A stretch of 64,000 nucleotides of DNA, taken from NCBI RefSeq assembly GCF_021491375.1, contig NZ_JAKEVY010000008.1, positions 1 to 64,000 on the forward strand, given 5' to 3'. The position numbers and the translations under genes are program-made. This DNA comes from Flavihumibacter fluminis. GTDB taxonomy: Bacteria > Bacteroidota > Bacteroidia > Chitinophagales > Chitinophagaceae. Position 1 is the stretch's first letter; each line of letters begins with the position of its first letter. The notes under the pieces are model-generated. The model was not told the DNA's origin. It made no database searches and saw only the letters and a list, made by a program, of their open reading frames with translations. Positions 2,321 through 37,426 of the stretch are shown here, piece after piece.

Positions 2321-3511
2321 TTATTTTGACAATACACCCAATTCCCGGCCCACTTTGGTAAATGCTGCAATGGCTTTATCGAGGTGCTCCCGGGTATGGG
2401 CGGCACTCAGCTGAACACGAATTCTAGCCTGCCCCTTTGGAACCACCGGAAAGAAAAATCCGATCACATAAATACCTTCTTCAAGTAAACGTGCTGCAAA
2501 TTGCTGTGCAACTACTGCGTCGTACAACATGATTGGAACAATCGGATGATCGCCGGGTTTGATATCAAATCCTGCTTCCGTCATTTGTTTTCTGAAATAA
2601 CTGGTGTTGGATTCCAGACGGTCACGCAGTTCCGTTGTTTCACTCAACATATCCAGCACCGCAATGGAAGCCCCTACGATGGACGGAGCCAGGGTGTTAC
2701 TAAAGAGGTATGGCCGACTTCTTTGTCGCAACATTTCAATTACTTCTTTTCTTCCACTCGTAAATCCTCCTGATGCTCCGCCAAGGGCTTTACCCAGGGT
2801 GCCCGTAATAATATCTACCCTTCCCATTACACCGCGGTATTCATGGGTACCACGACCAGTTTTTCCCAGAAAACCGGATGAGTGACACTCATCAATCATC
2901 ACAATAGCGTCGTATTGATCTGCCAGATCGCAGATTTTATCCAGTTGGGCAATGGTACCATCCATACTAAAGGAGCCATCCGTAACAATAATACGGCTTC
3001 TTGCCCCGGAGGCAGCCTGAAGCTGCAGTTCCAAATCCGCCATATCGTTGTGTTTGTAGCGGAACCGTTGTGCTTTGCATAGGCGAATGCCATCAATTAT
3101 GGAAGCATGATTCAGTTCATCAGAAATAATGGCATCTTCCTGACCAAATAAGGGTTCAAAGACACCTCCGTTGGCATCAAAAGCAGCCGCATATAAAATG
3201 GTATCTTCCGTACCAAGGAATTCGGCAATTTTTCTCTCCAGTGTTTTATGTATATCCTGGGTTCCGCAAATAAAACGGACACTACTCATGCCATATCCAT
3301 GAGAATCAATGGCTTCATGGGCTGCCTGGATCACTTTGGGATGTGAGGATAATCCAAGGTAATTATTTGCACAAAAGTTCAGTACTTTTTTCCCATTAAC
3401 CAGTATCTCTGGTCCCTGCTCACTGGTAATAACCCTTTCCTTTTTAAATAAACCTACCTCTTCGATGGATTGCAGTTCCTCTTTTATTCGCTGTACAAAT
3501 TTCTCGTTCAT
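2321..3511 (-). CDS. kbl: Glycine C-acetyltransferase (2-amino-3-ketobutyrate CoA ligase)
   Basis: This PLP enzyme of the alpha-oxoamine synthase family cleaves 2-amino-3-ketobutyrate with CoA to glycine and acetyl-CoA, the second step of threonine breakdown. The 396 residues show [14 protein letters not shown] (44-58), the cofactor-contacting [10 protein letters not shown] near 207-216 and the Schiff-base Lys241 in GTLGKALGG. The length equals that of E. coli Kbl. Threonine dehydrogenase (tdh) is not next to it. Alternatives in the family (BioF, serine palmitoyltransferase) are less likely given the [11 protein letters not shown] and ANGGVFEPL segments. Confidence 0.92.
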
Positions 3512-3667
3512 ATTACCGATTTAGGGTGTAAAAATAAGGAAGATTGCATGGCTAACGACTGTTCGTGAAATCGATTGAGTTGGCTGAAGTTGATCTTTTT
3601 TTAACTTTTTAGACTCGAAGATGTAACATCCCCTATCTATCTTGCGTCTAATTCGAAAACCGAAGCA

Positions 3668-3904
3668 ATGAAACGCCCGATTTCCAAAACCAACCTTATT
3701 CTTAGCTGTGCAGCACTCCTTACGGGCCTCATTCTAACAACTTATCTGTTGACTTTTTCAGGATTCTCCTTCCGGTCTGCAAGCACCAATGCAGCAGCTA
3801 CCTGTACTGAAATTGCGGAGGATGCCGCTCCTTCTCCTTTACCAGTAAGCAGTTCCATTATTTTTGAAGCAGTAACCGGCCACCTTCTTTCTACCGGATT
3901 CTAA
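3668..3904 (+). CDS. Hypothetical small membrane or exported protein
   Basis: A 78-residue open frame starts with a basic N terminus (MKRPISKTN) and one strong hydrophobic segment (about residues 10-32), then a short Ser/Ala-rich and acidic tail. It may be a single-pass membrane or exported peptide. An upstream match to the -7 box (TATCTTGC near 3640) supports expression. I recognise no family. It sits alone between kbl and the ECF sigma gene. Confidence 0.45.
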   Translation: MKRPISKTNLILSCAALLTGLILTTYLLTFSGFSFRSASTNAAATCTEIAEDAAPSPLPVSSSIIFEAVTGHLLSTGF

Positions 3905-3957
3905 ACCGCCTATCTTTCATCTTTACTGTCTTATATAGTTTTTTACTATATAATTAT

Positions 3958-4050
3958 CTTCCGTTTCCCCCTCTTCCATTCCTCCCTCTTCCATTCTCCT
4001 TTGTCTCCGGTCTCCTCTGTCTCCAGTCTCCTCTGTCTCCAGTCTCCTCT
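3958..4050. repeat. Pyrimidine-rich repeat block A, with 3 x 16-bp tandem array
   Basis: The plus strand is almost purely C/T. Within it, 3967-3999 shares 30 of 33 bases with 25019-25051, and 4003-4050 is a tandem array of three 16-bp units (GTCTCCRGTCTCCTCT), the second and third identical. The 13-mer CTCCTTTGTCTCC also occurs in the block near 52460. It occupies most of the 244-bp gap before the ECF sigma gene. Confidence 0.85.
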
Positions 4051-4067
4051 GTATCATCTTCCACACC

Positions 4068-4110
4068 TTTTTTCTATTTCCCTGTAACTTTATCCTCTTG
4101 CTATCCGTAT
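4068..4110 (+). promoter_or_regulatory. Probable promoter of the ECF sigma operon
   Basis: A T-rich stretch (4068-4079) is followed by CCTGTAACTTTAT (4081-4093) and then a short CTATCCGTAT segment. TAACTTTA fits the -7 consensus with one mismatch. From memory, this T-tract plus CTGTMACTTT arrangement is common ahead of ECF sigma genes of Bacteroidota; that part is recollection, not shown here. Confidence 0.4.
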
Positions 4111-4148
4111 AACATACAGAACCACCTGAAAATTCAACAAAACTGTTT

Positions 4149-4634
4149 ATGACAGAGAGGGAATACAATGAATGTGTGAGGACCCATGCGGATAATGTAT
4201 ACCGCTTCATTCTCAAAAACCTTCGGCACGAAGACGACGCGCAGGATATTGTGCAGTCTGCATTTGAGAAAATGTGGCTACACCGGGAAACGATCGATTA
4301 TGAAAAGAGCAAAAGTTATCTGTTTACTGTGGCCTATAACCAGATGATAGACCATATCCGGAAAACCAGCAGGGTGCAATTGAAGGAAGAGTTTTCAGAA
4401 CAAACCCGGATTACTGACCGGCCAGCCAGTAATCTCCGCAAAGTACTTGAAGACGCATTGGCCCGCCTTAGTGAGACTCAACGCAGCCTGGTGCTGTTGA
4501 AGGATTACGAGGGTTATTCCTACGAAGAAATCGGACGGATTACATCCCTGAGTGAGAGCCAGGTTAAAGTGTACCTGCACCGGGCCAGGATTCAATTGAA
4601 AAATTACCTGGTAAGTCCGGAAAACGTACTCTAA
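4149..4634 (+). CDS. RNA polymerase ECF-type sigma-70 factor
   Basis: The 161-residue protein has the two ECF domains only. Region 2 (about residues 8-75) includes EDDAQDIVQSAFEKMWLHR and the promoter-melting segment SYLFTVAYNQMIDHIRK. Region 4 (about 102-155) contains LSETQRSLVLLKDYEGYSYEEIGRITSLS as the -35 recognition helix-turn-helix, ending with SQVKVYLHRARIQLK. It is followed after 23 bp by a membrane protein with anti-sigma layout and then an outer-membrane barrel gene, so the trio is probably one envelope-stress operon. The regulon is unknown. Confidence 0.94.
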   Translation: MTEREYNECVRTHADNVYRFILKNLRHEDDAQDIVQSAFEKMWLHRETIDYEKSKSYLFTVAYNQMIDHIRKTSRVQLKEEFSEQTRITDRPASNLRKVLEDALARLSETQRSLVLLKDYEGYSYEEIGRITSLSESQVKVYLHRARIQLKNYLVSPENVL

Positions 4635-4657
4635 CCGTTCACCCAAATTTTGAAACC

Positions 4658-5761
4658 ATGAACATTAACAGAAATAATTACGAGGTTTTTTTCCTGCTGT
4701 ATATTGACCGCGAGTTGAACGCGGAGGAGATGCTGGCAGTGGAAAACTTTCTCGAAGAAAACCCGGATCTCCAAGTGGAAATGGATATGCTGTCAAACAC
4801 TATTCTTCCGGAAGATCAGGCAGCTGCTGTTTTTCCCGAAAAATCGAAATTGTATCGCACAGCAGATACAAGCAGCACGGTTTCCATTCTGAACTATGAA
4901 TCCTATTTCGTTCAATATGCCGATGATGAATTAAATAATGAAGAAAAAGCGGCTACTGAAAAATTTGTTTATGATAACCCTGAGTTTCAGGCTGAATTTG
5001 AATTAATTCAGCAGGCAAAACTGGTACCAGATAACACAGTAGTTTTTCCAGGAAAAGAAAAATTGTACCGTGGAAATTCAACCACTGTACGGCCCATGTT
5101 CCCGGTTTGGACCCGTTATGCAGCCGCTGCGATGGTACTTTTAATGGCCGGTTTGTTTTGGTTGGGACGCCAGGCTGAAACATCTAATATAAATATTAGT
5201 CAACAGGGAAGTATCGCAACGAATCAATCTCAAGCAAAAATACAACCTGCTGAAATTGTCGAATCCATAACAACACCAGGTGAACTTCCATCTGAGCAAG
5301 CAACATTGACAGCAAGTTCAAAGCCAACAGCTGCATCAGAAAAAACCTTGAGCAATGATGAATCTACCATACAGCTGGCAGTTATAAGTCAACCTCAGAA
5401 GATACAGGAAGTAAAGCTGCAAGCAAGTGTGCCGGGCCAAACCACCAATACAAAACTTCCGGTTGGTACTTCAATTGCAGCAAAAGTTGACGAACCGGCT
5501 GAAGGTTCTTTGGCGATAAACAGTTTAACTACCACTGAGAATTCCGTTATCCCTGTTCAGATTGATGATGAACCAGTGATAGTTGTAGCTGTCAATGATA
5601 ATTCGAGAGATGACGATACATTCTCCCCGGGAAAAGAAATAATACGAAAAACACCCTTGCGTGGACTACTTCGCAAAGCCGGCCGCATCGTAGGAAAAAC
5701 CAACCCATTCTCTGAAGATCGGGCAAAAGGCGGCGTATTCACCGCTTCCAATGAACAATAA
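4658..5761 (+). CDS. Putative anti-sigma factor with duplicated N-terminal domain, single-pass membrane protein
   Basis: Two copies of a 60-residue helical unit are visible: residues 7-67 (NYEVFFLLYIDRELNAEE ... FPEKSKLYR) and 79-138 (NYESYFVQYADDELNNEE ... FPGKEKLYR). One transmembrane helix follows at about 153-170. The rest is a Ser/Thr/Gln-rich periplasmic region ending in a basic segment. The layout of cytoplasmic domain, one membrane span and periplasmic tail next to an ECF sigma gene fits an anti-sigma factor. No His/Cys zinc motif is present, unlike zf-HC2 anti-sigma factors. The role is inferred from context. Confidence 0.75.
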   Translation: MNINRNNYEVFFLLYIDRELNAEEMLAVENFLEENPDLQVEMDMLSNTILPEDQAAAVFPEKSKLYRTADTSSTVSILNYESYFVQYADDELNNEEKAATEKFVYDNPEFQAEFELIQQAKLVPDNTVVFPGKEKLYRGNSTTVRPMFPVWTRYAAAAMVLLMAGLFWLGRQAETSNINISQQGSIATNQSQAKIQPAEIVESITTPGELPSEQATLTASSKPTAASEKTLSNDESTIQLAVISQPQKIQEVKLQASVPGQTTNTKLPVGTSIAAKVDEPAEGSLAINSLTTTENSVIPVQIDDEPVIVVAVNDNSRDDDTFSPGKEIIRKTPLRGLLRKAGRIVGKTNPFSEDRAKGGVFTASNEQ

Positions 5762-5781
5762 AAAAACGAAAAATCATATCT

Positions 5782-6618
5782 ATGTTTAAGAAGATCGGCC
5801 TGATGGCCCTGGCAACCTGTGCCCTTTTAAGTACGCAGGCACAAACCGATACCACCCAATCACCCGTAAAGGAAAGTGATACCATGCGAATCGGAAATAT
5901 CATCATCCTGAAAAACGGACAGCCGTCCAATCAATCCCAGGAAGTTCAGGATTATTTCAAACACAGAAAGTATAACAAGTCCAACCATGTAACCCATTGG
6001 TTTGCCTTTGATCTTGGCTTCAACAATTTTGTTGATAACACAGATTACAGTAGTCCGGAAGCTCAGGCATTTGCTCCGGGAGCAACCGACGACTGGTTCA
6101 ACCTCCGGAATTCAAAATCGGTCAATGTCAACATCTGGTTTGTACAGGGTCGGCTAAATATGATCAAACATGTGATCAATCTCCGGTATGGAGCCGGACT
6201 TGAGTTCTACAATTTCCGGTTCGAGGAAGATATCCGGTTCAGGAAGAATCCGCCGTCTGTTTATCTCGATGATCAGATCAATTACAACAAGAATAAACTG
6301 GCATTGAATTATATCACCGTTCCGGTTATGCTGAATATTAACTTCACGCCTGGTAAATCTCTGGAAAGATCCTTTGGAATCAGTGCAGGTGTAAGTGGGA
6401 GTTATCTCTATGGATCCCGTCAAAAATATCGCAGTGCAGAAACCGGAAAAGAGAAATTAAAAGGCAATCTTGGATTGAATGATTTCAAACTGGCTTATGT
6501 AGGTGAAATTCATCTTGGCCCAGTTCAGGTTTATGGTTCTTACGCCACAGAGTCCATGTTTAAAAAGGGGCTGGACTTCACGCCCTATACCGTTGGACTT
6601 AGGCTAAGCGCATTCTAA
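5782..6618 (+). CDS. Outer membrane beta-barrel protein of the sigma/anti-sigma operon
   Basis: The 278-residue protein begins with a signal peptide (MFKKIGLMALATCALLSTQAQ, cleavage after about residue 20). After a 60-residue linker comes alternating amphipathic beta-strand sequence (HWFAFDLGFNNF, INLRYGAGLEFYNFRF, YITVPVMLNINF, FGISAGVSGSYLYGS) ending with YTVGLRLSAF, an aromatic C terminus as in BAM substrates. It resembles the PorT-like/outer membrane barrel families. It lies 20 bp after the putative anti-sigma gene and is closed by a terminator at 6634-6668. It may be the target or a sensor of the operon; this is inference. Confidence 0.8.
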   Translation: MFKKIGLMALATCALLSTQAQTDTTQSPVKESDTMRIGNIIILKNGQPSNQSQEVQDYFKHRKYNKSNHVTHWFAFDLGFNNFVDNTDYSSPEAQAFAPGATDDWFNLRNSKSVNVNIWFVQGRLNMIKHVINLRYGAGLEFYNFRFEEDIRFRKNPPSVYLDDQINYNKNKLALNYITVPVMLNINFTPGKSLERSFGISAGVSGSYLYGSRQKYRSAETGKEKLKGNLGLNDFKLAYVGEIHLGPVQVYGSYATESMFKKGLDFTPYTVGLRLSAF

Positions 6619-6633
6619 TATGATCTACTTATT

Positions 6634-6668
6634 AAAAAAGCAGCTCCGGGAATCGGGGCTGCTTTTTT
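6634..6668. terminator. Intrinsic terminator after the ECF operon
   Basis: A perfect 11-bp stem (6634-6644 with 6658-6668; AAAAAAGCAGC / GCTGCTTTTTT) has a 13-nt loop, and its right arm ends in six T. It closes the barrel gene. Confidence 0.85.
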
Positions 6669-6701
6669 ATTGTATATTTAAGTAAATCAAAGTAAGGACT
6701 T

Positions 6702-7109
6702 ATGCCATACAATGTAATTGACATCGAAGGTATCGGAAGTACATATGCCGCAAAACTGGAAGTTCATGGAATCAAAACAACCTCTGACTTATTACAAAAA
6801 GCCGGAACCAAGGCAGGACGGGAAGTACTGGCTGCCGGATCCAAACTTCCGGAATCACTCATTCTGACCTGGGTGAATCATGCCGATCTGATGCGAATTA
6901 ATGGAATCGCAGGGCAAACCGCCGAATTACTGGAAGCAGCAGGAGTAGATACGGTAAAAGAACTGGCAACCCGTAATGCTGCCAATCTTCATACAAAACT
7001 GCAGGAAGTAAATAATCAGTTTGGATTATCCGGAAGGGTACCCTCCATGGAAATGCTGGCAGACATGATTGAAGCTGCCAAAAACCTGGAACCGAAGGTT
7101 TTCCACTAA
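6702..7109 (+). CDS. Helix-hairpin-helix protein, DUF4332 type
   Basis: The 135-residue protein contains two helix-hairpin-helix-like units: IEGIGSTYAAKLEVHGIKTTSDLL (residues 8-31) and the matching INGIAGQTAELLEAAGVDTVKELA (about 67-90). This arrangement is that of DUF4332 proteins, whose hairpins resemble those of DNA-binding and polymerase proteins. There is no signal peptide, so it should be cytoplasmic. It starts a run of same-strand small genes (BON lipoprotein, LysM protein). Function is not established. Confidence 0.82.
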   Translation: MPYNVIDIEGIGSTYAAKLEVHGIKTTSDLLQKAGTKAGREVLAAGSKLPESLILTWVNHADLMRINGIAGQTAELLEAAGVDTVKELATRNAANLHTKLQEVNNQFGLSGRVPSMEMLADMIEAAKNLEPKVFH

Positions 7110-7154
7110 ACAGTGGTTCAAAGCTGTCTTTTTTACCATTAAACCAGAATACAA

Positions 7155-7634
7155 ATGAAAAGTATCAGCAGATCACTATGGGTATTGTTCCTGATGGGAG
7201 CATTGACCTTCACCGGCTGTAAACCCAAAGATGCAGACATCGAAAAAAATGTTACAACTGCACTTGGAGCCTATCCAGGTGTGCAGGTTACAGTTACTGA
7301 TGGCGTTGCGACTCTTTCCGGTGAGGTAGCAGACGAAGCAACCCGATCAGCAGCGGAAACAGCTGCCAAAGGAGTCAAAGGTGTAAAATCCGTGAACAGC
7401 AAGCTAACAGTTACACCTCCGCCTGCCCCGGTTGTAATCAATCCGGATACAACTCTCCAGGAAACGGCCAATTCGGCAATCACAGCCTTGAACCTTTCTA
7501 AAGTGCAGGCAGCGGTTCAGGATGGAGTAATTACACTAACAGGAGAAATCAAAAAATCTGAATTACAGGGATTAATGATGAAAATCAATGAGTTAAAACC
7601 CAAAAAAATTGAAAACAAATTAACCATCAAATAA
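7155..7634 (+). CDS. Lipoprotein with two BON domains
   Basis: A signal peptide with lipobox LTFTGC puts the lipidated Cys at residue 22. Two BON domains follow, about residues 26-86 ([20 protein letters not shown] ... [13 protein letters not shown]) and 99-159 ([18 protein letters not shown]), joined by a Pro-rich linker. BON domains bind phospholipid or peptidoglycan-associated surfaces in OsmY and related stress proteins. The protein is likely anchored in the inner or outer membrane facing the periplasm. The next gene begins 10 bp downstream and is probably co-transcribed. Confidence 0.9.
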
Positions 7635-7644
7635 AACTGCAGCT

Positions 7645-8022
7645 ATGGCACTTCAGGATAATAAATACAAAAGCCTGGTTGACCTGGCAACTTCGCAAGG
7701 TGTAGCCAACTTACAAGTTAGAGAACAGGATGGTGTTTTGTATATCGACGGGATCGCCCCCAGTACTTCGGTAAAAGATGCCATCTGGGATCATTATGAA
7801 ACTTTGAACCCCGAATTCAGGGATGCTGACCTGATCATGAATCTCAGTCTGGCCGAAGGGGCAGAAGAGATTTATACCGTTAAATCCGGAGATAACCTCA
7901 GTAAAATTGCTAAGAAGTATCCCGGATTAAGCTGGAAGGATATCTATGAAGCCAATACTGACCTGATCAAAAACCCGGATCTTATCCACCCTGGATGGCA
8001 ATTAAAAATACCACGTAAATAA
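7645..8022 (+). CDS. BON-like plus LysM domain protein
   Basis: The 125-residue protein has a BON-like N-terminal half ([21 protein letters not shown], residues 20-40) and a C-terminal LysM domain (about 75-124: [30 protein letters not shown] ... PGWQLKIP). The arrangement is that of YgaU/Kbp, a potassium-binding BON-LysM protein of E. coli. There is no signal peptide, as in Kbp, so a cytoplasmic place is possible. It is translated just after the BON lipoprotein gene and closed by a terminator at 8035-8064. Confidence 0.88.
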
Positions 8023-8034
8023 TTGATTGTAAAG

Positions 8035-8064
8035 CAGAAAAGTCCCGAAATCGGGGCTTTTCTG
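8035..8064 (+). terminator. Intrinsic terminator after the BON/LysM genes
   Basis: An 8-bp outer stem (8035-8042 CAGAAAAG with 8057-8064 CTTTTCTG) encloses a CCCG/CGGG inner stem; the T run lies within the right arm. Confidence 0.75.
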
Positions 8065-8165
8065 TTAAGTTTTTCCAAAGTTTATCCACAGCCGAAATAA
8101 ATTAATATAAGGCAACGTTTTTGTGATACCCTAACCGTCGAAGCTAGTTTACAAAAATCAATTAT

Positions 8166-8723
8166 ATGCAGCTCTCACGTGTATCCGTATCCTTGCTGGC
8201 CCTGTGCACCGTTGGCCTGCTCTCCTTTTCCGGCCATAATTACCGGAAAGTCCGATTTAACCGGCTAAACTCCGAATTGAATGGCACTCCCCGCATTTTG
8301 GTGGACAAGACCGATTATGAACTGAGTATTTTTGATGATGAAGGCTGGTATGCCACTTATCCTGTGGTTTTTGGTGAAAAAACCCTGGGAGATAAGATGT
8401 GGGAAGGTGATCGCAAAACCCCTGAAGGTGAATACAAAATCGTTTCCAAACGCCCGCACGACAAATGGGGGAAAATTATGTTGCTGGATTATCCAACACC
8501 CGCAGACTGGGCGAAATACAAAGAAAGAAAAGCTAAAGGGCTGATTCCCAAGAACAAAGGCATCGGAAATGGGATCGCCATTCATGGTACCTGGATGCGG
8601 GACGACATGGCGGTAGACTATTTCCAGAACTGGACCAATGGCTGTGTCAGCCTGAAAAGATCCGAAATGGATGAACTTTTTGAAATGATCCCCATCGGCA
8701 CCAAAGTAACGATACGTAAGTAA
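8166..8723 (+). CDS. L,D-transpeptidase (YkuD family)
   Basis: This periplasmic cysteine transpeptidase makes 3-3 peptidoglycan cross-links or attaches proteins to the wall. An N-terminal hydrophobic segment (residues 4-22) acts as signal or anchor. The YkuD domain follows with ILVDKTDYELSIF, the substrate loop GDRKTPEGEY, catalytic His140 in IAIHGTW and nucleophile Cys160 in NWTNGCVSLKR. The last motif differs slightly from the usual HGCIR pattern. It is monocistronic, with a strong terminator at 8756-8784. Confidence 0.9.
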   Translation: MQLSRVSVSLLALCTVGLLSFSGHNYRKVRFNRLNSELNGTPRILVDKTDYELSIFDDEGWYATYPVVFGEKTLGDKMWEGDRKTPEGEYKIVSKRPHDKWGKIMLLDYPTPADWAKYKERKAKGLIPKNKGIGNGIAIHGTWMRDDMAVDYFQNWTNGCVSLKRSEMDELFEMIPIGTKVTIRK

Positions 8724-29198: not shown

Positions 29199-30437
29199 TT
29201 ATTTCATTCCAATAAAACTGGCAATCGCAAAAGAAAGAACCGCCACCACCAGGCCATACATAAATACATTATAGGAAATACGCAAATAATAATATTTCCT
29301 TGCCAGCACTTTACCGAGGTAATAAATATCTTTTATCATACTATCGTACAGATACTCACTATCGTTCATCATTTCTTTCATACCCCATTCGTACTCTTTC
29401 AGTTCCATTTTAAAAAAATTGCCAAAGAACAAGAGATTAGCCTTTTTCTGACGAATGTCTTCTTCCGTAAAAACACCCCCCGTTATAGTTGGACGGGTTG
29501 CACGAATGGCAAAGATTACAGCCGTCAGGCAAACCAATGCCAGTATTGCTGTAGGCAGAATAAACTGAGGGTAATATTGCAATTTTCCCAATAAAACAGA
29601 AACCAATATAGATAACACGATGGTATTAACCGAGATCATAATATTGGCTTTGCTATCTGCCATTTGACTAAGGCTCACATGATTTTCACTCATGATACGG
29701 AACATCGTAGCAATGCCCCTGTCGGTTCGCGATTGACTGGCTTTATCAACCGGTTTCTTTTCCTTTTCTGTACTGGTTGGCTCCAATGCGGGCACATCTT
29801 CGATGGTGCCTACAGGGGTTTCAACAGTTTCTCCTTTAGCAGCTGCTTCCTTATCCAGCAATGCCTTTAAATGCGCCTGTTTAACCGGCTCAAAATGAGT
29901 ACGCGCATACTCCGTAAAATACCGATGCTCCTGAAGAAACCGAATATTCGTTCTTCGCCACGCTTTTTTACTGATGTCTTTATTAAAGACAGTATTGATT
30001 TCCTTTCTGAGTAATTTACTTTCCTCCGGATAATGGGCGGACCCAAGATGCGCCATATCAGCATCACAGATGATCTGCTCAATAGGGTTAGCCGGCGACT
30101 GAGGCATGCTGGTAGCCAGAATGCAGGAACTCATTTTAGCAATCAGGGCCTCTGCCAGTCCCTGCTCCCTGCAAAACTTACAGGCAATTTCAACGCTGTA
30201 TTCTTCATGCCCCTCATATTGTGTACTATATCCCGCATCATGAAACCAGGCAGCGAGCAGCAAAGCAAGCCGGTCCTCCTCCGGAAGGTGCATGGCAGCT
30301 GCCATCTGGCTGGAAGCATCCACTACCTGAAGGGTATGGTGGAGGTCATGAAAATAAAGCGTTGCCGGAACGTTTTTTTCAAAATGTTGCCGAACCTGGT
30401 TAGCCGCCTTATCCAGAATGCCCGAATTTGCTTCCAT
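29199..30437 (-). CDS. HD-domain phosphohydrolase fused to a Pycsar-effector-type membrane domain
   Basis: The N-terminal part (residues about 15-190) is an HD domain with His34, His66-Asp67 in WFHDAGY and Asp125 in CDADMAHLG. After a Pro/Glu-rich linker the C-terminal part (about 245-411) has the DUF5706/Pycsar effector pattern: DSKANIMISVNTIVLSIL, a helix pair at about 265-316, and a last membrane helix near 388-410. Pycsar effectors respond to cyclic pyrimidine nucleotides. No cyclase gene is next to it, and it precedes yccS by 12 bp. It may hydrolyse or sense a nucleotide signal at the membrane; this is inference. Confidence 0.82.
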   Translation of the reverse strand: MEANSGILDKAANQVRQHFEKNVPATLYFHDLHHTLQVVDASSQMAAAMHLPEEDRLALLLAAWFHDAGYSTQYEGHEEYSVEIACKFCREQGLAEALIAKMSSCILATSMPQSPANPIEQIICDADMAHLGSAHYPEESKLLRKEINTVFNKDISKKAWRRTNIRFLQEHRYFTEYARTHFEPVKQAHLKALLDKEAAAKGETVETPVGTIEDVPALEPTSTEKEKKPVDKASQSRTDRGIATMFRIMSENHVSLSQMADSKANIMISVNTIVLSILVSVLLGKLQYYPQFILPTAILALVCLTAVIFAIRATRPTITGGVFTEEDIRQKKANLLFFGNFFKMELKEYEWGMKEMMNDSEYLYDSMIKDIYYLGKVLARKYYYLRISYNVFMYGLVVAVLSFAIASFIGMK

Positions 30438-30505: not shown

Positions 30506-31381
30506 ATGTTCCACCGTCTTACCTGGAATAGTTTTCTATCGCTGTTGGTTGTAACAGGTTTTTTATCCTGTAATCAACTGAGCGGTGTTTGTTTTGTGCC
30601 TGCCCTTCCCGGTTATCCGAATCAGCCTTCCCATACACTGTTACTTAAGAAGCCACTTCGCGAAATATCGGGAATCAGTTTTCATAATAATGGCCAACTG
30701 GCTGCCATAAACGATGAACAGGGAAAACTCTTCGTACTATCTACTACTTCTGGCAAAATCAACACCCTGAGTTTTGGAGAAAAAGGCGACTATGAAGATA
30801 TCGTCCGAACACCAGAAGGATACTATGTACTGAGAAGCGACGGAAGTCTATTTCTGCTGGATGGACGAAACGGAAAACTACTGGCTGATTACCCGTTGAG
30901 CTTTAGCAAATACACAGAATTCGAAAGTATTGCCTACGACCAGGATCAGAACCGACTATTGCTTTTTTGTAAGAACTGCGGTCAAGGAGAACCTGTTGTG
31001 TTCGGATGGGCTTTTAACCTGAACACTCACCAGCTGGAAGAACAACCAGTAGTGCAAATAGGATGGGATATTTTTCGTAAGCTGGCCAAAGATGATACCA
31101 TTGAATTTCAGCCTTCCGCTGCAGCTTTTCATCCGATTACTGGCGATTTGTATATACTATCCTCAACAGCCAAACTACTCGCAGTCTGTAACAGGGAGGG
31201 ACAACCGGAATCAGTATATGGATTGAACCCCGACCTGTTTCAACAACCGGAAGGTCTTTGCTTTGCCCCTAATGGAGATCTTTATATTTCCAATGAAGGC
31301 CGTCAGTCCAAAGCGACCCTGCTCTATTTCCCGTTTGATCCGGAACAAGCTGAGACCAACATTCAAACCATAAATAAATGA
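30506..31381 (+). CDS. SdiA-regulated-type beta-propeller lipoprotein
   Basis: The N-terminal hydrophobic stretch ends in the lipobox-like VTGFLSC with Cys near residue 22, suggesting a lipoprotein. The body shows propeller-type repeats (LREISGISFHNNGQLAAINDEQGKLFVL, GDYEDIVRTPEGYYVLRSDGSLFLL, QQPEGLCFAPNGDLYISNEG), similar to SdiA-regulated/YjiK-like proteins. Function unknown; possibly binding or phytase-like. Its stop overlaps the start of the metallophosphoesterase gene by 4 bp (ATGA), so both are probably made together at the cell envelope. Confidence 0.82.
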   Translation: MFHRLTWNSFLSLLVVTGFLSCNQLSGVCFVPALPGYPNQPSHTLLLKKPLREISGISFHNNGQLAAINDEQGKLFVLSTTSGKINTLSFGEKGDYEDIVRTPEGYYVLRSDGSLFLLDGRNGKLLADYPLSFSKYTEFESIAYDQDQNRLLLFCKNCGQGEPVVFGWAFNLNTHQLEEQPVVQIGWDIFRKLAKDDTIEFQPSAAAFHPITGDLYILSSTAKLLAVCNREGQPESVYGLNPDLFQQPEGLCFAPNGDLYISNEGRQSKATLLYFPFDPEQAETNIQTINK

Positions 31382-34300
31382 ACCCCTTCGCAATCAGACT
31401 CCTGTTTTCATCCCTTCTGATATTGGGTTCAATGCTGGTATCCGCACAAACAGATTCCGTAGTACAGGAAATAATCTTTATAGGCGACGCTGGCGAATTG
31501 ACAAATAATCAACACCCGGTATTAAATAAACTGCTGCAAAGCCAGCATTCGAAAAACGGGAAAGCAACCGCATTGTTTTTCCTCGGAGATAATATCTACC
31601 CTGCCGGTTTACCGGATGAACAGAGCAAGCATTACTCCAGGTACAAAGCAATTCTTGATACGCAATGGAAAGCAGGGGTGCAACTGGCAGATCAAATCTA
31701 TTTTATTCCTGGCAACCACGATTGGGCAAAGGGCCATAGTAACGGATGGCAACAGGTAAAAAACCAGGGGGAATACATACAAAACCTCAATCTTCCCAAC
31801 TTGTTTTTCCTACCTGCTGATGGCTGTCCCGGCCCCGAAGAACGAAACCTGAGTGATCAACTAACGGTTATCATCATGGATAGTCAGTGGTGGCTGCAGC
31901 AAACAGAAAAACCTGGTATTAGCAGCGACTGCGATTGCAATACCGAAGAAGAAGTATTGTTCCGTCTGCAGGAAATCCTGTACCGGAACAGAGAGAAGAC
32001 CATTCTGTTTCTGAGTCACCATCCTTTTGTTTCTTCGGGTATCCATGGAGGTTATTATCAGTTCAGGCAGCATCTTTTCCCACTTACAGAAATCAATCCC
32101 AAACTTTATATACCCCTTCCTATCATTGGTTCCATTTACCCTATAGTACGAGGTGGTTTTGGGAATATCCAGGACAACAAACATCCCACATACAAAAACA
32201 TGTCGTCCAGAATAGACTCGCTGTTGACTTATCATGGACGCGTACTCCGCTTTGCCGGTCATGAACATGGCCTGCAACATATCCGGATCAATAACCAGCA
32301 CTACATAGTTAGCGGTGCCGGATCCAAAGCAACCAGGCACAGAAAAAATAATGGTGACCAAATTAGTTTTTCAACCACCGGTTATGCAAAACTGCAATGG
32401 TTTACAGATGGAAAAATGCAACTGGTATTTATGGAAGCTGGTGAAGTAACACATCAGGAAGTATACAGGCAAGTTATTTTGCTCCCAGCCCCCAAAACGT
32501 CTGACACTGCAGATTTACCCGTTTCAAAATGGCCGGATAGCATCTCACTGGCAGCTGCACCTTACTTTACAGCCGGCAGACTCAGGCAACTAATTTTCGG
32601 ATCCAATTACCGGCAGGAATGGACAACGCCGGTAAAAGTGCCCGTTTTCTCTATAAAAGATTTTAACGGCGGATTACATCCAACCAAACGGGGCGGTGGT
32701 ATGCAAAGCCGTTCACTCCGACTGGAAGACAGCAGCGGCAGGGAATATGTCTTGAGAAGTATTGAGAAATATCCTGACAAAACCCTGCCAGAAGAATTGC
32801 GGCAAACTTTCGTAAAGGATGCGATTGTTGATGGCATTTCAGCCTCCTATCCATATGCAGCATTATCAGTTCCTGGTTTAGCAAAAGCAGCCGGAATTCC
32901 TCATACTAAACCAAAGCTGGTTTTTCTGCCAAATGATCCTGCCCTGGGTCAGTATCGCGCTGATTTTGGAAACAAACTCTATCTTTTCGAACCACGCGAA
33001 CCGGATGGCCTGGCAAAAACCTACAGCACAGATAAAGTACTTGAAGCCATTAGAAAAGACAACGACAATATTACAGATCAGCAGGCTGTTTTAAAAGCAC
33101 GCCTGCTGGACATGTTTATAATGGATTTTGACCGCCATGATGACCAGTGGCGTTGGGGCAGCAGAAACACAAAAGAAGGTCGAATTTATTTTCCGATTCC
33201 CCGTGATCGTGATCAGGCTTTCTTTACCAACCGTGGCTGGATCCCCTGGCTTATCAGCAGATCCTGGTTGCTGCCAAAATTCCAGGGGTTCAATATACAG
33301 GCAGAGAATATCAATCGCTTTAATTATAATGCCCGTTATTTTGACAGAAGTTTTTTAAACCGAACCAGCAGAGCGGATTGGGAGAAATTAAGCATTCAAT
33401 TGGTCAAGCAAATTTCGGATGCTGTAATTGATAGTGCCCTTGCTGCACAACCCACAGAGCTTCAATCCATGCAGGCAGGCACTATTGCAGCTATTTTAAA
33501 AAAGAGAAAACTATTTTTTGTTGATGAAGTGTTGGAATACCAGTCTTTTTTACACAGGACAATTGATATAGCGGGATCCAACAAAAAAGACTGGTTTGAA
33601 CTGGAATGGAAAGAAAAGGGAGACTTAAAGCTGACCATTTTTGATATCAACAAAGAAGGGAAACCGTCTGACAAATTATCTGAACAACGGATCGACCCTT
33701 TTATAACCAGAGAACTCAGACTATATGGACTAAAAGGGAGCGATGTTTTTCATATCAGGGGTGAAATGCCAAGAGGTTTTACCGTCCGTATTATCAGCGG
33801 TGAAGGAAATGACAGCCTGGTACTTGATCAATCCGGTAACCGGTCCTCTGACATTAAATGGTACGATATAGAACAGGAAGCCAATCAACTAACCGGGCCA
33901 GGAAAGCTGAAAAAAAAATTTTCCCATCTGCCATCTGTACACAACTACGATCGGAAAAGTTTTCGTTACAATATCACAACACCTCTTCTTCTGGCAACTT
34001 ACAACCGGGATGATGGTGTTTTTCTGGGGGCTGGCCTTCGATCAACACATCACCGGTTCAGAAAAGAACCCTTTGCTTACCAGCATCAATTCAATGCTTA
34101 TTATGCAGTAGCAACGGGAGCTTACCAGTTTCGATATTTATTTGATGCGCCTTCCTTTCGATTTTTTGCTAACCTGAAAGCCCCCAACAATACCCGAAAC
34201 TTTTTTGGATTTGGAAATCAGACAAAATTTGTAAAAACCGACCAGATCAATATCACGTATTACAGATCCCGCTTCAACCTTTTCGAATTGGCTGCCCTTG

Positions 34301-35007
34301 CAAAGTATGATCCGGCACCTTCTCTACAGTTGAATGCAGGCCCTGTATTTCAACATTACTGGATTGATTACGATGACAACCAAGATCGTTTCATTACAAA
34401 ACCGGAGAGCGGCCTCGATCAGGAGCGGTTAAAGCAGAAAAAAACCTATCTGGGCTTGCAGGCTCAAACGGTATTGGATACCCGGAATAATCAAACAGCC
34501 CCCACCAGGGGTGTACATTGGATTAATACGGCGAGATGGATAAATGGCGTTAGCAGGATTTCAAATTCATTCACGCAGTGGGAATCCACTTTCTCTTATT
34601 TTGTTAACCTTATAGCTCCTAACCAGGTAGTATTGGCTGGAAGAATTGGCGGTGGTGCCAACTACGGGAACTATGAATTTTTCCAGGCACAATACCTGGG
34701 TGGGAATGAAAGCCTCAGGGGTTACCGCAATTTCAGATTCGCAGGCAACAAACGATTCTACAACAACCTTGACCTTCGGATCAAACTGACTGAACTCAGA
34801 GGTTATATTTTGCCGGGTACACTCGGACTGTTATTCTTTCAGGATCTAGGCCGGGTATGGCTGAAGAACGAAAGTTCCAGGCGCTGGCACCTGGGTTATG
34901 GTGGCGGCATTTGGCTGGCACCCGCCAACCGGTTTGTTCTGGCTGCCTGTTATGGTCAATCAGAAGAAGGCGGACTTCCTTTTGTCAGCCTGGGATTTCA
35001 ATTCTGA
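31378..35007 (+). CDS. Three-part surface protein: metallophosphoesterase, kinase-like middle region, outer membrane barrel
   Basis: A signal peptide (residues 1-23) is followed by a calcineurin-type phosphoesterase with GDAGE (Asp37), GDN (Asp71-Asn72), GNHDW (113-117), SHHP (His214) and GHEH (295-298). The middle region (about 420-700) has EYVLRSIEK with Lys464, DFDRHDDQW (Asp585-Arg586-His587) and RDRDQAF (Asp610, Asp612), a pattern like the catalytic parts of HipA/PI3K/FAM20-type kinases; this is inference. From about 862 to 1209 there is an Omp85-type barrel (GGGANYGNYEFFQAQYLGG) ending in GFQF. The protein is probably in the outer membrane. It overlaps the preceding lipoprotein gene by 4 bp and the GAF gene by 10 bp. 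Confidence 0.85.
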   Translation: MNPFAIRLLFSSLLILGSMLVSAQTDSVVQEIIFIGDAGELTNNQHPVLNKLLQSQHSKNGKATALFFLGDNIYPAGLPDEQSKHYSRYKAILDTQWKAGVQLADQIYFIPGNHDWAKGHSNGWQQVKNQGEYIQNLNLPNLFFLPADGCPGPEERNLSDQLTVIIMDSQWWLQQTEKPGISSDCDCNTEEEVLFRLQEILYRNREKTILFLSHHPFVSSGIHGGYYQFRQHLFPLTEINPKLYIPLPIIGSIYPIVRGGFGNIQDNKHPTYKNMSSRIDSLLTYHGRVLRFAGHEHGLQHIRINNQHYIVSGAGSKATRHRKNNGDQISFSTTGYAKLQWFTDGKMQLVFMEAGEVTHQEVYRQVILLPAPKTSDTADLPVSKWPDSISLAAAPYFTAGRLRQLIFGSNYRQEWTTPVKVPVFSIKDFNGGLHPTKRGGGMQSRSLRLEDSSGREYVLRSIEKYPDKTLPEELRQTFVKDAIVDGISASYPYAALSVPGLAKAAGIPHTKPKLVFLPNDPALGQYRADFGNKLYLFEPREPDGLAKTYSTDKVLEAIRKDNDNITDQQAVLKARLLDMFIMDFDRHDDQWRWGSRNTKEGRIYFPIPRDRDQAFFTNRGWIPWLISRSWLLPKFQGFNIQAENINRFNYNARYFDRSFLNRTSRADWEKLSIQLVKQISDAVIDSALAAQPTELQSMQAGTIAAILKKRKLFFVDEVLEYQSFLHRTIDIAGSNKKDWFELEWKEKGDLKLTIFDINKEGKPSDKLSEQRIDPFITRELRLYGLKGSDVFHIRGEMPRGFTVRIISGEGNDSLVLDQSGNRSSDIKWYDIEQEANQLTGPGKLKKKFSHLPSVHNYDRKSFRYNITTPLLLATYNRDDGVFLGAGLRSTHHRFRKEPFAYQHQFNAYYAVATGAYQFRYLFDAPSFRFFANLKAPNNTRNFFGFGNQTKFVKTDQINITYYRSRFNLFELAALAKYDPAPSLQLNAGPVFQHYWIDYDDNQDRFITKPESGLDQERLKQKKTYLGLQAQTVLDTRNNQTAPTRGVHWINTARWINGVSRISNSFTQWESTFSYFVNLIAPNQVVLAGRIGGGANYGNYEFFQAQYLGGNESLRGYRNFRFAGNKRFYNNLDLRIKLTELRGYILPGTLGLLFFQDLGRVWLKNESSRRWHLGYGGGIWLAPANRFVLAACYGQSEEGGLPFVSLGFQF

Positions 35008-37379
35008 ACGATCTCAATAACCTCCGGTTTGTTTTCGGTGCTTTCAGATTCGTCTGGTTCCATATTGATACTTACCCGAAGTGCCTTTAGTCCTACCACT
35101 CCCTGAAGTTCTTCCAGCTCCAGCTGCTCAAGGTCGTGCAGCAGCATGCGCTGATTTTGAAGGAATTCAATATAATCCAGGTATTCTGCAGCTTCGCGCG
35201 ACTGAGAGAAAACAATTGCCAGTTTGCCAGGTTGCGTTAGCCTTTCATTGCTACCCTTTACATGCACCTTATCAATACGCTTCTTGATTATTTCATAGCG
35301 GATGTTATAAGCGCCATCCACATCAAATTTTCGCTCAGCAGTTCTGAAACTGATGGAAATCGGAACGCTGTGAGCAAGTATCAGTTGCGTTGTTTTTAAA
35401 GGATTGGATATCCTTGTCTGCAACTGGTTAGCCAGCCTCGCAGCCCTTGTAAGGGTAGTCAACTGCCACATCTTCAAATTCTTCAGATAAAAAGTATCAA
35501 AAGGTTTGTCCGGTGTAATAGACTGACCGATATACATATTGAAATCCACACCATCAGTCACAAATCGCTCAAAATAATGCGGATAAATTTTTTGCGCTAC
35601 ATCCTGTTCTGCATCAATAAAGCGGGCAAGTTCCTGATTGATAAACGTTATGCTTTCTTCAAACTCGTGCCGGTGAGTAACTTTTAAACGGATAGCAGGA
35701 TCTATCTGCTCAAAATATCCATCTACAAAGGCACCTAGTTCCGGAAGCAAAACACGTAGGTGTTCAAATAGCTCCACCACTTCATTCCGAAGAAAATGAT
35801 CAATGATGACCTCATCACCGGAAAACAGGATATTGGAAACATTGTAACTGTATTTCTCAATTCGGTAGGCCACTTCCTGAAGCAGTGGCATATTTGTTTT
35901 TTCCTTCGCTTTCTGCACTACTTCTCCCGCATACCTCAGCTGTTCCAGCAGATCCTGCTGAATGGCAAGGTTTCGCTCAATGGATGAATTGCGAATATCT
36001 ATTGCACCATACAATGGAAATACCTGATCAAATACGATCGGTTCAATTTTTGCTTTACCTCCTTTTGCCTTGGTTGCAATAAACTGAAGTGCCGCTTCTG
36101 TGAATTTCCATTCTACTGAACTTTGTACGGCAGTGAAATGCTGTTTGATAACTTTGTCAACTTCATTATCCAGCGTTTCCGCAGCCTGTTCCATGGCTAA
36201 TACAAATAGCGGAATGGCTTCCACAACTTCACTCAGATGCTGGTGTTTGATTGCATGCGCCTCCTTATGAACCACCGATAAAATACCAATTAATTTTCCC
36301 ATGCTTTTTAACGGGAAAAAGGCAGCGCTGTAATACCCGATGGAAGTAAGATTCATAAGCATCGGATAACGTTCCAACCACTCATGCGTAATTGATGAGA
36401 TCAGCAAAGGCTGATCGGTTTCTTTAAATAATTCCTGAAAAATCTTACAGAGATTATCCGTTCCTTTTTGACTGCCATCTGCTTTAAGCAGGATACTGTG
36501 ATGCGTGAATTGTTCAGCCACAATCTGATGTTCATTGACCCTAAAAAACGGAGTGACCCCCATTTTCAGATCAGGGATACCCATCAGCGCCTGAACCTGT
36601 CGCTCGATTTGATGGAATACCTGATTTTCGCCAAAACCGTGCTGTTCCAGTAAGATATTTTTGATGGAATTGATAACCTCCCGATGTGTTACATCTTTAA
36701 TCCGGACAACGGTAATTCCCTCAAACCGAAATTTTTCGAGTGGAAAAAGCTTTCGCAGTTTATCCTGCTGCAACACATCTGTTACATTACAACATTGCGG
36801 TAAACTGGAAACATCCGGAAGTTCCCCCTGAGCATGCACTTTAATGAACGTCGTATCCAGATCAAGTTCATAATAGATATCCAGTCCCGTTTGTGGATTG
36901 GGCAGCCTTACAATACTGGTAACATTTCCGTCAATGTTCTGACCGTATAACTGGGAAAGTATTAGTTTATAGGCGGATGCACATTTTTCTTCCTGCAGGT
37001 GCTGGGTAGCTACTTCTTCAGGAATGCTGTTCAGCTTACCGGATGCATCCAGGAACAACTCCCGAAAACGTTTACTGCAGTAAATCATTTCCCTGCCGAA
37101 GGGAAGCCCTACTCCATAGAGATCTTCCTGATCAGAGTAGGAAACAGGGAAAAGGGTAGCCATTAGCATGTCTACCCATTCCTCGTGTTCTTTTAAAATG
37201 GAGATATCTTCTATCGGCTCCAGCAGTTCTGGATGCCGCTTAATTCGATCCAGCAATGTTTGGTAGAGCTTGCGCGTTCCAGGTCTGCCTTCTGCTGCCG
37301 TTCTGGCCCATGCATCTACCAGTGGGGCGAAGGATAATCGGGATTGGATTTCCTGTTCCCCTGAATAATTCGGTTCCAT
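34998..37379 (-). CDS. Large GAF-domain-containing cytoplasmic protein
   Basis: The 793-residue protein (start at MEPNYSGEQ chosen; an ATG at 37424 is possible) has no signal peptide or membrane span. A GAF-like region is seen around residues 300-420 (ILLKADGSQKGTDNLCKIFQEL ... AAFFPLKSMGKLIGILSVVHKE). The flanking parts are mostly helical with no motif I recognise. It may sense a small ligand or act in signalling. It ends tail to tail with the barrel protein gene (10-bp overlap). Homologues without assigned function are likely in Bacteroidota. Confidence 0.75.
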   Translation of the reverse strand: MEPNYSGEQEIQSRLSFAPLVDAWARTAAEGRPGTRKLYQTLLDRIKRHPELLEPIEDISILKEHEEWVDMLMATLFPVSYSDQEDLYGVGLPFGREMIYCSKRFRELFLDASGKLNSIPEEVATQHLQEEKCASAYKLILSQLYGQNIDGNVTSIVRLPNPQTGLDIYYELDLDTTFIKVHAQGELPDVSSLPQCCNVTDVLQQDKLRKLFPLEKFRFEGITVVRIKDVTHREVINSIKNILLEQHGFGENQVFHQIERQVQALMGIPDLKMGVTPFFRVNEHQIVAEQFTHHSILLKADGSQKGTDNLCKIFQELFKETDQPLLISSITHEWLERYPMLMNLTSIGYYSAAFFPLKSMGKLIGILSVVHKEAHAIKHQHLSEVVEAIPLFVLAMEQAAETLDNEVDKVIKQHFTAVQSSVEWKFTEAALQFIATKAKGGKAKIEPIVFDQVFPLYGAIDIRNSSIERNLAIQQDLLEQLRYAGEVVQKAKEKTNMPLLQEVAYRIEKYSYNVSNILFSGDEVIIDHFLRNEVVELFEHLRVLLPELGAFVDGYFEQIDPAIRLKVTHRHEFEESITFINQELARFIDAEQDVAQKIYPHYFERFVTDGVDFNMYIGQSITPDKPFDTFYLKNLKMWQLTTLTRAARLANQLQTRISNPLKTTQLILAHSVPISISFRTAERKFDVDGAYNIRYEIIKKRIDKVHVKGSNERLTQPGKLAIVFSQSREAAEYLDYIEFLQNQRMLLHDLEQLELEELQGVVGLKALRVSINMEPDESESTENKPEVIEIVQN

Positions 37380-37426
37380 CTTGTTGACCGTTGCCTTAAT
37401 GCAAACGACTACAAAATTAACCAATT

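Follow-up and report, generated by a model that had tools for sequence, protein, structure and literature searches.

A kinase-like domain between a purple-acid-phosphatase-like domain and an Omp85 barrel in Flavihumibacter fluminis and related bacteria

Introduction

What might be the function of a protein that begins as a secreted metallophosphoesterase, ends as an outer-membrane β-barrel and has between the two a long region that no Pfam family accounts for? The question is raised by one gene in the DNA that we studied, positions 1–64,000 of the forward strand of contig NZ_JAKEVY010000008.1 of Flavihumibacter fluminis (assembly GCF_021491375.1). This whole stretch of 64,000 nucleotides is referred to as the window, and all coordinates refer to it.

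31378–35007, plus strand: whole gene for phosphoesterase, kinase-like domain and Omp85 barrel, 1209 amino acids, ATG start, intact (open reading frame and full-length model)
31378–31449, plus strand: signal peptide, about residues 1–24 (N terminus hydrophobic on inspection of the sequence)

The reading frame exists just as a first-pass annotation of the window, made from the sequence alone, had given it (plus strand, ATG start, 1209 residues). Along the chain there follow one another a signal peptide, a metallophosphoesterase, the middle domain, a β-rich linker and a 16-strand Omp85 barrel devoid of POTRA domains. The full-length AlphaFold2 model, built from 59 sequences (alignment A3), has a mean predicted local distance difference test score (pLDDT) of 88.9 and a predicted template modelling score (pTM) of 0.83. 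Pfam detects Metallophos at residues 32–230 (E 2.9e-6) and Omp85 at residues 943–1192 (E 8.9e-12), and finds no family in the middle region at E ≤ 1. Elsewhere in the same genome the sole match at E ≤ 0.001 is a frame of 361 amino acids, 30% identical over residues 215–340.

The first-pass annotation knew of no described protein of this build, which holds for the kinase and not for the rest. A class of PF00149-Omp85 proteins, 'Metallo', was listed in 2014 in the Omp85 survey by Heinz and Lithgow (PMC4104836), where the enzyme is termed a 'metalloprotease' and its conservation is given as 'at genus-level'; the main text of that survey never uses the word 'kinase'. Judged by domain content rather than by a comparison of members, this class probably consists of the same proteins as the fusions described here. 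Beyond the survey, nothing of this build appeared among the matches listed in our literature searches, and the main texts of PMC12611786 and PMC12045153 contain neither 'kinase' nor 'phosphoesterase'.

A kinase-like fold is predicted for the middle domain

32536–33594, plus strand: kinase-like domain, residues 387–739 (model, fold search and conservation; no Pfam family above cut-off)
32692–32706, plus strand: glycine-rich loop GGGMQ, residues 439–443 (between two strands in the model; conservation)
32755–32769, plus strand: R460 and K464, candidate β3 basic residues (conservation)
33124–33147, plus strand: catalytic loop DFDRHDDQ, residues 583–590 (conservation; covered by the profile match to CtkA 3akj)
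33205–33213, plus strand: DxD, residues 610–612, candidate metal-binding site (immediately follows a strand of the model; conservation)

The model of the middle domain alone, built from 88 middle domains (alignment A2), is confident (pLDDT 91.6, pTM 0.91). A Foldseek search with this model against the PDB returned 464 matches at E ≤ 10, and the 11 with E ≤ 0.001 are four chains of CtkA (best 6.7e-6), four of the type II phosphatidylinositol 4-kinase PI4KII-alpha (best 4.8e-5), two of CotH (1.0e-4) and Rio2 (7.2e-4). The best 50 of the 464 are all kinase-like, going by their titles except for YihE, MSMEG_1954, Rv3197, WaaP, Gcn2, Stt7, COQ8A, Yck2 and the pre-40S chains z, which we take to be kinase-like. 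In the viral library, eight matches reached E ≤ 0.001; three of them are unnamed or uncharacterised, and the top one is a phage protein named as a PI3/4-kinase (6.2e-8). The fold of the middle region was one of the points on which the first-pass annotation had let its kinase reading stand or fall. The confident model and its best matches, CtkA, PI4KII-alpha and CotH, bear that reading out, and we consider it nearly certain from the modelling that the domain has a kinase-like fold.

The residues singled out earlier (K464, D585-R586-H587, D610 and D612) are present at the numbers given, and their order, said to be that of kinases, is also seen on the secondary structure of the model: a glycine-rich loop, a basic residue, the catalytic loop DxDRHxxQ between a helix and a strand, and then DxD. 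R460 lies inside the strand after the glycine-rich loop and K464 three residues further, just past the strand; on the model, either of them may be the donor-binding basic residue of kinase strand β3. When residues 385–745 were shuffled, DRH with a DxD some 20–32 residues further on arose in 1 of 2000 shuffles, a test devised post hoc. A sequence profile of 52 domains placed CtkA (3akj) first in the PDB (E 0.02), with an alignment spanning the DRH loop.

The domain is less easily assigned to a family. Of the kinases for which a fold search had been proposed in the first-pass annotation (HipA, CotH and FAM20C), CotH and the HipA-like CtkA match, and FAM20 has no entry among the best 50 of the 464 fold matches, nor in the profile search. 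Type II PI4-kinases are likewise absent from the five PDB matches of the profile (E up to 10). Neither Pfam CotH (PF08757) nor HipA_C (PF07804) matches the window protein; the former matches one of the 52 family members (E 0.013), the latter two of them weakly (best E 0.2). The catalytic loop also differs from that of HipA and CtkA: we take DRHxxN to be the HipA-type catalytic loop (DRHNGN is seen in the CtkA profile match), and here it is DRHxxQ, with Q590 in 153 of the 154 near relatives defined below. For a comparison of profiles by hhalign, alignment A1 was set against CotH (19 sequences) and HipA (19 sequences, from 21 loci) from the same bacterial family. The resulting HipA alignment puts D585 and H587 on the Asp and His of HipA, and Q590 on its Asn. 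Plain membership in CotH or HipA is ruled out by Pfam and unsupported by the profile comparison. As far as models and sequences go, the fold is kinase-like, yet no comparison places the domain in a known family.

Conservation and loss of the kinase site

The near-relative set comprises 154 sequences, that of the window protein included: 98 fusions of the full build, 37 kinase-barrel, 11 kinase-linker and 8 kinase-only forms. Four of the 154 (from loci L005, L010, L084 and L091) are cut or interrupted reading frames. R460, E538, D578, D583, R586, D610, D612, G440 and P692 are invariant in all 154; K464, Q590 and G439 are kept in 153, D585 and H587 in 152, and Q443 in 149. Since every relative was found by querying with the kinase-like domain or with the protein as a whole, relatives have this domain largely by construction. 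Moreover, the 80 loci in use are the best 80 of 594 confirmed ones, picked via the pattern D[WF]DRHx[DGK]QW, and the conservation of DRH and QW is therefore built into these rows and into alignments A2 and A3. The 69 rows from whole genomes, mostly best matches of family-level and phylum-level genome searches, were not picked in this way, and in them D585 is kept in 67, R586 in 69, H587 in 67 and Q590 in 68.

A further sample was hand-picked from phylum-wide matches of the middle domain, 20 of the weakest and 20 of middle rank, and gave 41 kinase-like reading frames (one entry, G163, repeats L056). All 12 checked sites are kept in 28 of them and altered in 13. The sole altered fusion among the 28 fusions of this sample is L237, with D585G; changes seen in the altered frames without phosphatase include Arg and Tyr at positions 610 and 612. 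Altogether, the checked kinase residues are kept in 125 of 126 fusions (98 near relatives with the window protein, and the further 28), and 69 of these 126 sequences, one of them counted twice, were chosen without the DRH pattern. A kinase that never decays is ruled out by the 13 altered frames among the 41 weaker matches; constancy is a property of the fusions only.

Among kinase-barrel forms without the phosphatase, the near relatives keep the kinase site and 12 distant ones have lost it. These 12 reading frames (in L204–L212, L214, L217 and L221) are candidate outer-membrane pseudokinases, and their kinase-like domain, going by its residues, probably is a pseudokinase domain. A different arrangement is seen in two loci, L062 (7756–9378 and 9439–11151) and L063 (7433–9055 and 9192–10778), where a copy with D585S/H587R adjoins an intact copy in a divergent pair. 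In sequence each of these pairs looks like a pseudokinase teamed with an active kinase.

Phosphoesterase, linker and barrel

31471–32412, plus strand: metallophosphoesterase, purple-acid-phosphatase-like, about residues 32–345 (Pfam Metallophos, ligand set, Foldseek)
33559–33924, plus strand: β-rich linker domain, about residues 728–849 (secondary structure of the full-length model)
33973–34992, plus strand: 16-strand Omp85 barrel, about residues 866–1205 (Pfam; strands of at least 8 residues counted in the model)
34714–34725, plus strand: LRGY barrel motif, residues 1113–1116 (position checked; L1113 in 94 and G1115 in 96 of 98)

All phosphoesterase ligands had been said to be present, and the metal-ligand set of the window protein is indeed complete: D37, D71, Y74, N113, H114, H214/H215, H295 and H297, in the form DxG / GDxxY / GNHD / HH / GHxH. 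This meets in full the pattern DxG / GDxxY / GNH(D/E) / xxxH / GHxH, which we take to be that of purple acid phosphatases. Sequence matches to these phosphatases, TRAP included, are weak (E 0.07–0.5, residues about 265–323). In the PDB, the full-length model matches GAP50 first (3tgh, 2.5e-10; matched range not displayed), whose title names it as the anchor in the Plasmodium inner membrane complex and which presumably has a purple-acid-phosphatase-like fold.

The phosphatase is not kept as strictly as the kinase site. All seven core ligands are found in 96 of 126 fusions (75 of 98 near relatives and 21 of the further 28), with at least six in 79 of the 98; two or more are lost in 26 of 126, namely in 7 of the 28 and in 19 of the 98, the latter lacking four or more. 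Of those 19, 18 come from the pattern-picked set. On an unrooted FastTree tree of 152 domains, which omits domains outside 320–400 residues, duplicates and the four cut frames and retains 18 of the 19 degenerate fusions, the degenerate state needs four changes among fusions. We read this state, from the sequences, as loss. The putative phosphoryl-transfer and phosphatase pair envisaged in the first-pass annotation is supported in part only, given that these 26 fusions lack two or more phosphatase ligands.

The Omp85-type barrel, also noted earlier, is supported by Pfam (45.6 bits against a cut-off of 24), by the 16 strands in the model and by fold matches to BamA and TamA (e.g. 4n74, TMt 0.74), which together with related barrels occupy the rest of the best 50 of 675 matches after GAP50. 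The LRGY stretch is presumably the loop-6 motif of Omp85 proteins. The NCBIfam model Omp85_fam (NF047779) gives 87.3 bits, below its 200-bit threshold. No POTRA domain is seen, because the linker (residues 728–849) is without any helix of four or more residues in the full-length model. Within the linker, the LKGSDVF and GEGNDS stretches at residues 785–815 (33730–33822) look like β-roll turns. Omp85 members free of POTRA are on record as the 'noNterm' class (PMC4104836), and the enzyme domain that PlpD carries on its Omp85 barrel is described as facing the periplasm (PMC11116518). By analogy, the barrel most likely holds the phosphoesterase and kinase-like domains on the periplasmic side.

Architectural variants and spread

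Fusions account for 59 of the 87 kinase-like reading frames in the best 80 of 594 loci, and a signal peptide was found by a crude hydrophobicity rule in 91 of 99 fusion frames. The domain also occurs with a barrel only (about 850–940 residues) and with the linker only (about 500–570 residues), the latter often with a lipobox (6 of 11 by a crude rule, one of the six being cut). A third build, found at five loci, is a protein of 423–425 residues with a single N-terminal hydrophobic helix. In L069, on the minus strand, the three parts are separate consecutive genes for the kinase (5237–6793), the phosphoesterase (4019–5230) and the Omp85 barrel (2838–4022); the first two lie 6 bases apart, and the last two overlap by 4 bases. 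That the three modules form one chain in one lineage and neighbouring genes in another speaks for a joint function.

Two further loci have unusual arrangements. In L084 a kinase-barrel gene is split into two reading frames (5908–7170 and 7183–8490), and in L126 a separate metallophosphoesterase (4761–5750), which matches Pfam more strongly (1.6e-18), lies directly upstream of a kinase-barrel gene. Within the bacterial family, 28 of 60 genomes, including that of the window, match the protein at E ≤ 1e-5, one of them (G042) in the barrel only; across the phylum, 111 of 296 sampled genomes match the middle domain, some of them as decayed forms.

Genomic neighbours

30506–31381, plus strand: SdiA-regulated/NHL β-propeller protein with a lipobox-like Cys seen by eye (Pfam; upstream, overlapping the fusion start by 4 bases)
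29199–30437, minus strand: HD domain and PycTM membrane protein (Pfam; conserved neighbour)
34998–37424, minus strand: large protein whose weak GAF match stays below the Pfam cut-off (convergent, overlapping the 3′ end of the fusion by 10 bases)

Neighbours were counted in flanks of at most 6 kb, which makes every count a minimum, and the loci counted are relatives of one another. The SdiA-regulated gene occurs near at least 26 of 59 fusion loci, always on the same strand (26 of 26), 21 times upstream and six times with the 4-base overlap. The HD-PycTM gene, in which PycTM is a Pycsar-type 2TM domain, is near 40 of 59 fusion loci versus 1 of 21 other loci; as a nucleotide cyclase is sometimes close by (6 of 59), it perhaps has a non-defence signalling role. 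A defence system is rejected, since PADLOC finds nothing in the window protein at E 0.001 and matches only the PycTM part of the neighbour. The GAF gene is found near 19 of the 59 fusion loci, which also have histidine phosphatases of one kind (7) and SixA-like ones (4), nucleotide cyclases (6), histidine kinases (5) and PAP2 proteins (2). The 21 other loci have GAF (4), PAP2 (4), PPK1 (2), SdiA-regulated (2), histidine kinase (2) and separate phosphoesterase (1) genes.

PPK1 is present in 11 of the 80 loci, 9 of the 59 with fusions and 2 of the 21 others. Individual cases of PPK1 near a kinase-like gene are L089, L093, L095, L097, L100, L106, L111, L112, L117, L145, L146 and L072, some of them with SixA-like phosphatases. 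Among the matches listed for 44 genomes, PPK1 lies 7.6–15.9 kb from the domain in 13, all in one family (f23); in the other 31 it is far away on the same contig (4) or on a different contig (27), and one of these 27 (G195) has a second PPK1 next to the kinase gene. The F. fluminis genome has PPK1 on contig C21 and the fusion on C40. The phosphate theme among the neighbours is suggestive.

Which reading fits best

On balance, and with some reserve, we favour the reading that this is an extracytoplasmic kinase anchored in the outer membrane and belonging to a new family, one with an atypical CtkA/PI4K/CotH-like protein-kinase fold and an attached, sometimes decayed, phosphatase. The fold, the motif order, the conservation, the architectural variants and the neighbours are what computation provides; from them we infer catalysis, the side of the membrane, a donor and a substrate. 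The reading is supported by the presence of the domain on other extracytoplasmic anchors: a barrel alone, a lipoprotein with a lipobox-like site or a single N-terminal hydrophobic helix. The glycine-rich loop, R460/K464 and E538 would bind a nucleotide or another phosphate donor, Q590 and D610/D612 would bind metal, and D585 would serve to pass the phosphate on to a protein, lipid or glycan of the envelope. An intact phosphatase, as in the window protein, would take phosphate off that same substrate or help to recycle it, and one that has lost its ligands would serve as a scaffold. That the window protein is a catalytic phosphotransferase appears probable; that its kinase and phosphatase act on one and the same substrate seems doubtful.

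Several results weigh against an extracytoplasmic kinase. Foldseek TM-scores to CtkA and CotH are 0.33–0.51, with a root-mean-square deviation of 6–12 Å over the nine best matches; with such modest scores the domain would be a distant family. The profile match to CtkA reaches only E 0.02, and the remaining four matches are unrelated proteins at E 0.07–1.3. The hhalign comparisons are not significant (CotH E 0.065, HipA E 0.079, versus 0.026 for an unrelated control and 0.27 and 0.58 for reversed profiles), a weak test given that even HipA and CotH, set against each other, came to no better than 0.015. Five residues past the catalytic Asp there is Gln, not the usual Asn (153 of 154), and the strand residue is Arg. 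Of the 41 weaker matches, 13 have changes in the catalytic site (12 of the 13 that lack the phosphatase, and one fusion of 28), and two lipoprotein-like copies carry D585S/H587R. Lastly, the periplasm is described as being without ATP (PMC11116518).

The last point bears on what is transferred. The same fold might transfer AMP, or phosphate taken not from ATP but from polyphosphate or pyrophosphate, an alternative that we think unlikely. A donor besides ATP would suit such a compartment, and Gln in place of the metal-binding Asn (153 of 154) and Arg in the strand set the domain apart from common kinases. PPK1 accompanies the domain in the 11 of 80 loci and the 13 of 44 genomes mentioned above, and human TRAP, a purple acid phosphatase, degrades polyphosphate (PMC3817253). 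On the other side, the DRH loop and DxD resemble those of a usual phosphotransferase, and PPK1 is distant or on a different contig in 31 of the 44 genomes listed, as also in the genome of the window. PPK1, moreover, is a cytoplasmic enzyme. A bolder form of the kinase reading would be a Bacteroidota outer-membrane phosphorylation system, in which a kinase and an opposing phosphatase, on one barrel-anchored chain or in three adjacent genes, use a donor other than ATP, perhaps polyphosphate. Polyphosphate comes to mind because PPK1 linkage in several lineages hints at it; as a whole, this proposal is improbable.

Could the barrel be the working part? A similarly unlikely alternative is that it is an active Omp85 insertase or translocase, and that the kinase-like and phosphatase domains have a regulatory or structural role in the assembly of outer-membrane proteins or lipids. 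It would account for the 16-strand barrel with its LRGY motif and BamA/TamA-like fold, and for the distant kinase-barrel forms that retain the barrel as the kinase site decays. It fits poorly with the lack of POTRA, with kinase-like domains that occur without any barrel and with clustered neighbours that are not known outer-membrane assembly genes.

Less probable still is that the kinase-like domain is a pseudokinase serving binding or scaffolding, in the window protein too. The 13 altered frames among the weaker matches make this explanation slightly more likely, and an extracytoplasmic kinase slightly less so. Catalytic-site residues are lost in 12 of the 13 further non-fusion frames and in 1 of the 28 further fusions, and the Asn-to-Gln change, the placement of Arg and Lys and the repeated decay of the attached phosphatase point the same way. 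However, the checked residues are intact in the window protein, as in 125 of 126 fusions, and the two lipoprotein-like sequences without D585 adjoin an intact copy, as in an active/inactive pair. Motifs arising by chance are ruled out by the fold model, the fold matches and the conservation.

If the protein is an extracytoplasmic kinase, its significance is threefold. A kinase-fold domain with a conserved site at the outer membrane would open envelope phosphorylation to direct testing; the record of an Omp85 class listed as metalloprotease would be corrected; and the chain points to phosphate transfer in a compartment with no known ATP supply. Animals offer well-known cases of reversible phosphorylation beyond the cytoplasm, with SIBLING proteins as targets of the kinase Fam20C and osteopontin as a target of dephosphorylation by TRAP (PMC5486932). 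To our knowledge, little of the kind is known in bacteria.

Comparison with known systems

Each module has counterparts among known systems, and each departs from them in some way. CtkA/HipA-like kinases give the best fold match (3akk) and the first profile match (3akj), and differ in that the domain described here has DRHxxQ and extracytoplasmic anchors. The secretory kinases CotH and FAM20 share the secretory location, and CotH also the fold (5jd9/5jda). CotH is described as having two essential Asp residues, D228 and D251 (PMC7821199); they are 23 residues apart, and the corresponding spacings in the window protein are 25 and 27. The difference is that no significant profile relation to CotH is found for the family described here. 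Type II PI4-kinases are similar in fold (4hnd, 4hne, 4pla, 5eut) and different in compartment and domain build.

The remaining two modules can be compared in the same manner. Purple acid phosphatases, TRAP and GAP50 resemble the phosphoesterase in its five-block ligand pattern, and GAP50 is the first fold match; here the domain is fused to a kinase-like domain and a barrel and has lost two or more ligands in 26 of 126 fusions. PlpD likewise bears an enzyme domain on an Omp85 barrel, but according to the source this is a lipase (patatin) domain accompanied by one POTRA (PMC11116518), whereas POTRA is absent here. The closest in overall build is the Omp85 'Metallo' subfamily, which, as listed in the survey, combines a PF00149 domain with an Omp85 barrel (PMC4104836), and to which our results add the kinase-like domain and the barrel-free relatives.

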